NCBI RefSeq assembly: GCF_900188175.1
Contig: NZ_FZOQ01000003.1
Span: forward strand, 186,001-250,000
Source of the DNA: Pontibacter ummariensis
GTDB lineage: Bacteria; Bacteroidota; Bacteroidia; Cytophagales; Hymenobacteraceae
DNA: 64,000 nucleotides
Direction of reading: 5' to 3'
A program made the translations under genes and the position numbers. This document shows positions 39,249 through 43,654 of the stretch, piece after piece. Below the pieces are notes generated by a model that was given only the letters and a program-made list of their open reading frames with translations, ran no database searches and was not told where the DNA came from. Position 1 is the stretch's first letter. The number at the start of each line of letters is the position of its first letter.

Positions 39249-39632
39249 TTAGTGGCTGTCTCCTGCAAAAGCAATGGTACTCAGCAGGGCATTTTCCGAT
39301 TGGCGTGAATCCAGGCGGGTATGCTGCACTACTACCGGCACGTCAGACTCTATGACGCTGGCATAGTCGGTGTCACGGGGAACGGGTTCAGGATTCTTCA
39401 GGTCGTTAAAGCGGAGGTGCTTCGTGCGGCGCGGCTGTACTGTCTCTACATAAGGACCTACTGGGTCGCGGTCGCTGAAGTAGAGCCAGATCTTTATGTT
39501 TGCCTCCTGGTCAGAGGTGTTCAGAATGCAAGCGGTTTCGTGGCTGGTAAACTGGGGCTCGGGGCCATTGCCATAAGGGGGAATATAACCCTCTGCAATA
39601 GCCCATACTTTATGGCCGATGGCGTTTTTCAT
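39249..39632 (-). CDS. Sensory rhodopsin transducer (ASRT) family protein
   Basis: A 127-residue soluble protein of the family of the Anabaena sensory rhodopsin transducer. Diagnostic blocks are WAIAEGYIPPYGNGPEPQF, SHETACILNTSDQEANI, GPYVETVQPRRTKHLRFNDL and VVVQHTRLDSRQSENALLST. In Anabaena the transducer binds the cytoplasmic side of a sensory rhodopsin, but the family is wider than rhodopsin and has been proposed as a small-molecule, possibly sugar-binding, fold. No rhodopsin gene is in the window. Its place in one unit with a trehalose-synthase-like enzyme favours a role in carbohydrate sensing. Confidence 0.93.
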   Translation of the reverse strand: MKNAIGHKVWAIAEGYIPPYGNGPEPQFTSHETACILNTSDQEANIKIWLYFSDRDPVGPYVETVQPRRTKHLRFNDLKNPEPVPRDTDYASVIESDVPVVVQHTRLDSRQSENALLSTIAFAGDSH

Positions 39633-42059: not shown

Positions 42060-42793
42060 AGCGGTCGGAAATTTAAGTGTTGCAGGCAGTCCGCTTTTGG
42101 GAGCTGTACTCCGATCAAAAGAAAAGCCCGGTGGGGGCCGGGCTTCCTTACAGGGTTAAAGAGCTTTTTGGCAGGAAGTTCTGTCGCTTGCGCATGTTTT
42201 TTTTAAGTTTGCAGGGCAGGCACTACAGAAAGGGGGACTGTAGCGCTTCGCAAAGCGTATCAACAGAAGCTGCTTCCAAAAGATCTAGTTGGTCATCAAT
42301 CAAAGGGGAAAGCTCTTTTCCTTTATACTCTAACAAATTATCTCGAAGATTTTCTTATATCGAAACAGACTTGGTTTGTCACCAGGCCCCTAATTATAGT
42401 GGTATAGACCGGAGGAAAGGTGGTGCGGCTGTCGAAAGCAGTTCTTATTCCACTTGAGGTTTCTACGTTAGCACTGTATCCTCACCAAGGCCTTGCCTGC
42501 GCTATGCCTGCTGCCTATCCCTCAGGCTTTAGGCAGACGGCCGTCTTCTTTACGCACTCCTTTCTCTTGCGTAAAATTAGGGGCTTTGCCTGCGGAAAAA
42601 AAGGAATTAAGGGTGCGTTTTGTAACACCGGCAGATGGTGCGCAAGGGAGGTTGTGTACGACGTGTTGTAGCTTTTTAGGCGTAACAGAGGGTTTTTATG
42701 CTGCGGGTATTGGGGTGCTTTGTAACATTGGGTAGGTTATATGGCAATAGGCAAAAAGGCAGTGGCTGAAGAAGTTGCCTGTGCAAGCTCAGA
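42060..42793. other. Intergenic region, about 730 bp, ahead of the short-peptide array
   Basis: No gene recognised. Open frames at 42077-42457 and 42493-42735 have no supporting features. TGTAACA, the reverse complement of the motif seen at 30.7-31.2 kb, appears at 42621 and 42721. A weak hairpin sits at 42124-42145. Confidence 0.5.
42124..42145 (+). terminator. Possible weak terminator hairpin
   Basis: The arms AAGCCCGG (42124-42131) and CCGGGCTT (42138-42145) flank a six-base loop TGGGGG. There is no long T-run. It lies 64 bp beyond the stop codon at 42059. Confidence 0.55.
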
Positions 42794-42820
42794 CTATAAA
42801 GTAACTATAGCCTGAGCTTG
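42784..42820. repeat. Inverted repeat at the end of short-peptide gene C
   Basis: The arms CAAGCTCAGACTATA (42784-42798) and its near-complement (42806-42820) pair over 15 positions with one mismatch. It covers the stop codon and last residues of peptide gene C. It may terminate the array, though no U-run follows on the minus strand. Confidence 0.6.
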
Positions 42821-42955
42821 GGTGGCAATTGGCTGTGCAGTGGCATAAGCTATCAACTGTTGGCGTTCAGCCACTACACGGCGGTAATCAAAGGCATCTT
42901 TGCAGGCAAAGCAAAAGCCAGCTAGTATTGTGAATAAAAGGACCAGGATTTTCAT
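42794..42955 (-). CDS. Short-peptide gene C, diverged member of a three-gene array
   Basis: A 53-residue peptide found by reading the minus strand. It starts MKILVLLFTILAGF, like its two neighbours, but the rest has diverged (KDAFDYRRVVAERQQLIAYA, then a Gln/Ala-rich tail) and the NLLPEVEIVA block is absent. The 20 bp before the ATG resembles that of gene B (ACAA then ATAAAAC). It may be a decaying or functionally changed copy. Two Cys residues follow the hydrophobic stretch, without a clean lipobox. Confidence 0.5.
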   Translation of the reverse strand: MKILVLLFTILAGFCFACKDAFDYRRVVAERQQLIAYATAQPIATQAQAIVTL

Positions 42956-43014
42956 CGTTTTATCTTGTCTAATGGTTGCGGTCGTAGGTCTGTTCCTTCA
43001 AAGGCTGCGAGGCA

Positions 43015-43179
43015 CTAGCTTTGTGGTGCCACTATCTCTACTTCTGGCAGTAAATTGCCGTGGTGCTTATACTCTTTGATCTCATTTCGGGTACTGATCT
43101 GATTCATGTCATCAACTGACTTCTTTACAGTGGCTCCGAATCCGAATAAAATGGCGAATAATAAAATGATAATTTTCAT
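43015..43179 (-). CDS. Short-peptide gene B with NLLPEVEIVA motif
   Basis: A 54-residue peptide: hydrophobic MKIIILLFAILFGFGA, a charged middle with KKSVDD and ISTRNEIKEY, then NLLPEVEIVA close to the C-terminus. It aligns without gaps to gene A over its whole length. The stop is TAG at 43015. The leader lacks a Shine-Dalgarno and reads ACAAAATAAAACC before the ATG. The gap to gene A is 56 bp and to gene C 59 bp. No known family is recognised. Conservation of two copies at the protein level is the main evidence that it is coding. Confidence 0.7.
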   Translation of the reverse strand: MKIIILLFAILFGFGATVKKSVDDMNQISTRNEIKEYKHHGNLLPEVEIVAPQS

Positions 43180-43235
43180 GGTTTTATTTTGTTATAGTTT
43201 TTAGGATCGTGTTTGGTACTTGTGCTTGGTATGGT

Positions 43236-43418
43236 TTAGTTGTGGAGGCCAGCGTTGCTACTTTCTGCCACAATCTCCACCTCAGGTAAAAGATTAGGGA
43301 GGTTTTGATAGGCTTTCATCTCGTTTCTTTTAGAGATCTCTTTCAAGTCGTCAGCAGACTTTTTAACGTTAGCTCCTAAACCGAATAACATGGCGAATAA
43401 AAGGACGATGATTTTCAT
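43236..43418 (-). CDS. Short-peptide gene A with NLLPEVEIVA motif
   Basis: A 60-residue peptide with N-terminal MKIIVLLFAMLFGLGA (membrane anchor or signal-like), then NVKKSADDLKEISKRNEMKAY and NLLPEVEIVA, with a short polar tail. It is the first gene of the array on the minus strand and the longest. Identity to gene B is high in the KKS-x-DD, IS-x-RNE and LLPEVEIVA blocks. The hydrophobic part is followed by Asn-Val-Lys-Lys and has no obvious signal peptidase site. Its function is unknown. Confidence 0.75.
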   Translation of the reverse strand: MKIIVLLFAMLFGLGANVKKSADDLKEISKRNEMKAYQNLPNLLPEVEIVAESSNAGLHN

Positions 43419-43626
43419 AGTTTTAAGTTTTATAAGTTCTAAGTATTCTTTTCTTGTTTCTGCTTAATAGATAGCGGCTTAGGTCTAAAGGTTGCTTGCG
43501 CCGCTATAATTATTTTAATTTCTGATTGAGCTATTACACTTTGTGTGCCAAACTAGATAACTTATTGATTATTAGCATGTTATCCAGGTGGTGTTTGTGT
43601 GGGGATAAGTGAAAACTGTCCGGTGC

Positions 43627-43654
43627 CGAACACCTGACTGTTCGCTCTCGAACA
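43627..43654. promoter_or_regulatory. Inverted CGAACA repeats in front of the sterol-desaturase-family gene
   Basis: CGAACA (43627-43632), its reverse complement TGTTCG (43639-43644) and a third CGAACA (43649-43654) sit 5 to 32 bp before the ATG at 43659. The inverted pair has a six-base spacer, like an operator. Confidence 0.4.

Follow-up and report, generated by a model that had tools for sequence, protein, structure and literature searches.

A genus-wide family of small Pontibacter peptides has a sigma-54-like promoter and a tail that matches TonB boxes

TonB boxes of E. coli are of the DTxVxA type, and the box-like pentapeptide ETVIV reportedly goes back to original work by Tuckman and Osburne. 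TonB adds the TonB box as an extra strand to its C-terminal sheet, according to the available sections of PMC11658791. In those of PMC5413942, TonB binds a TonB-box peptide from BtuB with a Kd of 9.4 uM, and known TonB-box peptides have Kd values of about 10-40 uM. In the same sections, ETVIV given to E. coli cells served as the control for blocked TonB activity, and adding it made cells whose BtuB plug had been weakened resistant to bacitracin again (PMC5413942). That the corresponding position in Bacteroidota is a TonB box rests on the SusC-type protein Bt1763, whose box is DEVVVTG and in which, in the accessible text of PMC7782687, deletion of the box or its replacement by alanine gave a levan growth defect like that of SusD loss. 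Here, we describe a real, genus-wide and previously nameless peptide family of Pontibacter with a sigma-54-like promoter and a tail matching TonB boxes.

The DNA analysed, hereafter the window, is a stretch of 64,000 nucleotides from Pontibacter ummariensis. A sequence-only reading had marked in it a tandem array of three short minus-strand genes, A, B and C, and re-reading the ORFs reproduced all three, separated by 56 and 59 bp (Table 1). A and B have the blocks MKIIxLLFA, VKKSxDD, ISxRNE and NLLPEVEIVA in common, C having the N-terminus only, and A and B are 69% identical over residues 1-54. The hydrophobic N-terminus was borne out in the ORFs and their homologues. Peptide A comprises this hydrophobic start, a charged helix and a tail with NLLPEVEIVA at residues 42-51; the structure model (weak, mean pLDDT 65.5) has a helix at residues 3-39 and then a disordered tail. 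Among 23 aligned proteins, K19, N42, L43, L44, P45 and V47 are invariant outside the hydrophobic start, and the nearly invariant residues include P41, E48, V50 and A51. Across the retrieved loci, N[LM]L[PN]xV is kept in each of the 61 distinct A/B proteins; in 55 of them residue 44 is the first of the box, and in 44 proteins the best-scoring 9-residue window is followed by three residues. Two lysines come directly after the hydrophobic stretch, a placement that is unusual in cleaved signal peptides.

Table 1. Positions of the peptide genes and of the elements upstream of the array (window numbering unless a contig is named)
Feature	Position	Strand	Basis
Window	G000:C42:186001-250000		5.97 Mb genome
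Peptide A, 60 aa	43236-43418	(-)	ORF, homologues, purifying selection, box score
Peptide B, 54 aa, A paralogue with same tail	43015-43179	(-)	ORF, purifying selection, box score
Peptide C, 53 aa, A/B N-terminus, without box	42794-42955	(-)	ORF, weak profile match
Double palindrome, 38 bp, TGTTCG-N4-CGAACA-N6-TGTTCG-N4-CGGACA	43617-43654	(-)	2 places in genome, conserved
IHF-like site AATCAATAAGTTA	43558-43570	(-)	0 mismatches to consensus
Sigma-54-like element TTGGCAC-N6-TGTAAT	43533-43551	(-)	only such place in genome, conserved
AGCAACC-N17-ATCTATTA	43465-43496	(-)	only such place in genome, conserved
D-type peptide gene, LDTVEI tail	G000:C64:418949-419152 (L005 1501-1704)		

Within the window, A and B differ by a dN of 0.231 and a dS of 1.82. 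Selection was assessed at 24 loci, i.e., 23 Pontibacter loci and the window, 15 of which have two A/B-type genes. None of the 276 A pairs or 105 B pairs had pN equal to or above pS. With dS saturated in 131 of the A pairs and 35 of the B pairs, the median dN/dS was 0.217 for the 145 usable A pairs and 0.219 for the 69 usable B pairs. The earlier claim that these are real conserved peptides thus gains a dN/dS of about 0.22, and none of the testable outcomes that it had named against itself, such as a lack of homologues outside the locus, was seen. Their supposed position below the size limits of gene calling did not hold up, as NCBI records carry relatives as hypothetical proteins. Short length is the sole point in favour of the array ORFs being chance frames rather than genes; purifying selection, conservation across the genus and a conserved promoter stand against it. 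Selection and conservation rule out a chance or non-coding origin of A and B, and for the array we give it a negligible probability.

A protein search with A returned 22 matches, A itself counted. The profile search gave 194 matches at E <= 1, and among the 120 listed those labelled with an organism came from Pontibacter and from two Hymenobacteraceae MAGs. At the genome level, A/B-type matches were present in 50/50 Pontibacter genomes, with a weakest best E value of 1.7e-15, and the homologue search proposed in the sequence-only reading thereby yielded relatives well beyond the locus. Across the family, 63 of 204 genomes matched at E <= 0.1, i.e., the 50 Pontibacter genomes and 13 others, the latter at 5.6e-5 or worse; across the order, 27 of 390 matched at E <= 0.01, 19 of them strong Pontibacter matches and the other eight again at 5.6e-5 or worse. 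In line with the statement that no family could be recognised, A, B and C had no match above cut-off in Pfam or NCBIfam; the same was true in Pfam for four relatives including D (see below), and PADLOC had no match above cut-off for A-D. Rfam at gathering scores gave 0 matches across the window, and the only match from profile searching of the PDB was weak and covered 17 residues (8vd6, 'CAP REPEAT', E 7e-4).

The tail was compared with the residues that precede the 58 Plug matches of the genome, among which are LDEVEIVAQR, LETVEVVAAK, LQEVEVTAEK and LEEVVVVGYG. A box matrix was built from 57 of these, one having been dropped for an upstream stop and one evident non-box retained. LLPEVEIVA scored 13.37, a value equalled or exceeded by 47 of the 57 boxes when each was left out in turn, with 10 lower; the sequences of A and B thus score no differently from many TonB boxes of this genome. 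None of 245 other small window ORFs reached this score, nor did any of 5000 shuffles of A, and one of 5000 shuffles of B did. In a background of 800 kb, made up of 40 hand-chosen stretches of the same genome, 13.37 was reached by 1/1934 small ORFs and 5/462 long ORFs, and 0/71 small ORFs with a signal-like start reached 9.7, which is the median of the A/B family (range 2.1-14.8). The lower family scores include PVVEVVA, the form of many B-type boxes. Exact EVE[IV]xA occurs at six places in the genome, namely in two transporters, A, B and two unrelated frames, and a DUF5686 protein, which is not a TonB-dependent transporter, has the same strand after its CarboxypepD_reg domain. At the level of sequence, the A/B tail is a match to the TonB boxes of the genome's own transporters.

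Beyond this shared residue pattern, the peptides differ from TonB-dependent transporters in having neither a plug nor a 22-strand barrel: they are 54-60 aa long with no Pfam domain, and their box lies a few residues from the C-terminus instead of before a plug. Like synthetic ETVIV, they would present a free box peptide in the sense of the available text of PMC5413942. ETVIV was added externally, whereas A and B are genome-encoded, with a hydrophobic N-terminus and a predicted regulated promoter.

A second peptide type, D, has the N-terminus common to A/B and a different tail, ranging from LDTVEITV to LDTVVITA, in which L51, D52 and T53 were kept in 30/30 aligned homologues. D matches reaching at least model position 61 were counted by hand in 45 of the 50 genus genomes. 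These tails resemble enterobacterial TonB boxes, among which ETLTV and ETVIV occur in the available parts of the papers cited above and below. The D box of this genome scored 5.9, equalled or exceeded by 4/245 small window ORFs, and two of 19 D proteins carry the box twice. In the structure model of D, residues 3-21 form a helix and confidence is low elsewhere. D genes have a different conserved promoter of the AACAGTAC-TTTGCAATACATAGTAC type, which we take to be PadR-like, and the double palindrome of the array was absent at all 19 D genes examined. At three loci that are an extra, unlinked copy (L007, L010 and L011), an A gene is followed by a D gene under the D-type promoter.

Peptide C gave a weak profile match (E 3e-7). 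All 18 distinct C-type proteins scored <= 0.0 with the box matrix, their tails being variable and box-free, with an ARQQLLA-like stretch in several relatives. The idea that C is a lipoprotein was dropped on account of the cysteine missing in several C-type relatives.

About 200 bp upstream of the array are conserved and hold four elements (Table 1). Elements were counted up to 400 bp from the first gene at the 24 loci and at 29 further loci, many from the same genomes. The double palindrome, allowing at most two mismatches, was found at 19/24 and 23/29, the sigma-54-like element at 19/24 and 23/29, and AGCAACC-N17-ATCTATTA at 21/24 and 26/29; when each locus was shuffled once, none of the three turned up. 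The palindromes, missing upstream of 5/24 arrays, are presumed activator (enhancer) sites. An IHF-like site, AATCAATAAGTTA in the window, was present with at most one mismatch in 18 of 30 distinct array promoters, compared with 9% of shuffles. The -12 part of the sigma-54-like element, TGTAAT, departs from the sigma-54 consensus. AGCAACC-N17-ATCTATTA was present (<= 2 mismatches) at 47 loci, every one with a 17-bp spacer, and is possibly a second promoter, for an alternative sigma factor; no motif like it appears in the available part of PMC12596196. An inverted repeat, ATAGCGGC...GCCGCTAT (window 43471-43507, minus strand), overlaps this element.

At least one double palindrome was present in 46/50 genus genomes, compared with 3/50 for the reversed pattern. 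The genome studied here has two, the second lying between a response regulator gene and a divergent run of pump genes. The regulator has Sigma54_activat and HTH_8 domains, and its gene is followed by a histidine-kinase-like gene; the run encodes an HlyD adaptor, an ABC ATPase, a MacB permease, a toast_rack/LiaF-like protein, an M61 peptidase and an outer-membrane efflux protein. Twenty further non-array sites, fetched from those listed, comprised 13 taken as second sites and seven weaker third sites (two mismatches). A MacA-like gene adjoined 11 of the 13 second sites, with the activator as well at 10; around the palindromes L233 (G154:C45) and L234 (G176:C13), no MacA-like, MacB-like or activator gene was found within 6 kb. 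Six of the seven third sites adjoin other MacB-type permeases, of 28-35% identity, the exception being L240.

Of 30 distinct array promoters, 28 have TGGCAY at 63-66 bp from the palindromes and two have no TGGCAY. Of 12 pump promoters, 11 have it at 64-65 bp; for the last one, L235, an earlier TGGCAC was counted, but the alignment shows the element in its usual position. At the -12 position, pump promoters mostly have TTGGCA and arrays TGTAAT, or TGCAAT in two. By sequence comparison, then, the array and the MacAB-TolC-type pump operon have a common promoter layout. Of the features expected of a sigma-54-dependent operon, palindromes, TGGCAC at a fixed spacing, a candidate activator and rpoN (one copy in this genome) are present, but the -12 part is off the consensus. 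Array and pump operon are likely to be co-regulated by one sigma-54 activator. Literature searches on MacB with sigma-54 response regulators in Bacteroidetes, whose coverage took in few subscription journals, returned no report.

Our best-supported guess, which is not a finding, is that A and B may occupy TonB as decoys, switched on together with the pump, and so throttle uptake while efflux rises; we advance this tentatively, at somewhat short of an even chance. The response regulator beside the pump would bind both the array site and the pump site, with envelope stress as the putative trigger because the operon holds LiaF/toast_rack-like and efflux genes. The peptides would reach the periplasm, anchored or cleaved, where they would show their TonB box and occupy TonB, and TonB-dependent entry would fall as efflux increased. 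A wider form, in which the genus as a whole makes its own TonB decoys and an envelope-stress activator closes TonB uptake, opens efflux and excludes toxic riders, is conceivable, with the doubt on it outweighing the trust. Presence in 50/50 genomes, the dN/dS values, the box match, the tail kept in 61/61 and LDT in 30/30 proteins, the operator near the pump and the precedent of ETVIV argue for the decoy reading. Against it count the lysines after the hydrophobic stretch, the weak scores of PVVEVVA and D, the DUF5686 strand, the 5/462 long ORFs at the A/B score, the -12 TGTAAT, the operator missing at 5/24 arrays, the L233 and L234 sites without pump or activator, and the boxless C, which this reading does not account for.

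The genome has eight TonB_C matches to its 58 plug matches, so a large set of transporters has to make do with a small number of TonB proteins. If true, the decoy reading would amount to a genome-encoded, direct post-translational brake on TonB, explain how uptake could be shut as efflux is raised, and offer a natural scaffold for TonB inhibitors. Titles and opening lines of abstracts on TonB-box peptides and TonB inhibition mentioned no natural TonB-box peptide besides colicins, and searches covering few subscription journals found nothing on a TonB box in small periplasmic Bacteroidetes proteins or on a Pontibacter small protein with TonB.

The strongest rival is that A and B are partners or cargo of the MacAB-TolC-type pump, i.e., MacB modulators or exported peptides. 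AcrZ is a small membrane modulator of AcrB with about 50 residues and one N-terminal hydrophobic helix, to which the peptides, likely pump-co-regulated, can be likened; A and B differ from it by their conserved TonB-box-like tail. The promoter layout common to the array and the MacA-like operon, the MacB-type permeases beside 6/7 weaker operator sites and the single long helix predicted for A (residues 3-39, weak model) all speak for such a partnership, which nevertheless leaves the tail's copy of the genome's TonB boxes unexplained and has to contend with D, which keeps a similar tail under another promoter. On balance we think it somewhat unlikely. Alternatively, the tail might be an edge strand that docks on another envelope protein, its likeness to TonB boxes being a convergence of short beta-motifs. 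The motif is indeed short, and both the DUF5686 protein and the two unrelated EVE[IV]xA frames show that it can occur elsewhere; however, two peptide families have the pattern in common, and a score of 9.7 was reached by 0/71 small ORFs with a signal-like start in the 800 kb, which both count against convergence, and we regard this reading as unlikely. The same degree of doubt applies to its example partners, the LiaF/toast_rack-like protein of the likely co-regulated operon or a beta protein of the outer membrane.

The peptides might also be exported signals or colicin-like peptides that enter other cells through their own TonB box and a TonB-dependent transporter. In colicin M (box ETLTV), the TonB box likewise lies in an unstructured, flexible terminal segment, as the available sections of PMC8469651 and PMC11658791 describe. 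Unlike colicins, A and B have no killing or receptor-binding domain, are 54-60 aa long and occur in every genus genome examined, at syntenic positions in most; neither a toxin-like or other Pfam domain in A, B or C nor an immunity-like gene among the scanned neighbours was recognised, and strong purifying selection, not diversification, acts on them. We consider a role as exported signals or colicin-like peptides improbable. The sequence-only reading had named three options. Its partner of an envelope protein is favoured by the TonB-box-like block, and signals, which it also suggested, are conceivable; its precursor of a modified peptide found no support, with no NCBIfam or Pfam match for A, B and C and no such enzyme in five neighbours searched with Pfam.

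Several minor observations concern similar strands and the surroundings of the array. Nine sister-genus peptides (L137-L145) have a similar hydrophobic start and lack NLLPEV; in most of the nine, a QEVIYINQ-like strand replaces NLLPEVEIVA. Elsewhere in this genome, a 219-aa protein with no Pfam match (L283 16630-17289, G000:C64) has NLKEVVVRP directly after a signal-like start and is possibly another non-transporter with a TonB-box-like strand. Near the array, an S51-peptidase gene was found at 20/24 loci, an RF-1-domain gene at 20/24 and a conserved convergent gene without a Pfam match at 21/24. An operon link to these neighbours was rejected, and they were not taken as functional evidence because array and S51 gene are divergently oriented and the next conserved gene is convergent with the array. 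Positions 39249-39632 of the window, a few kb away, encode an Anabaena sensory rhodopsin transducer (PF07100, E 2.5e-56).
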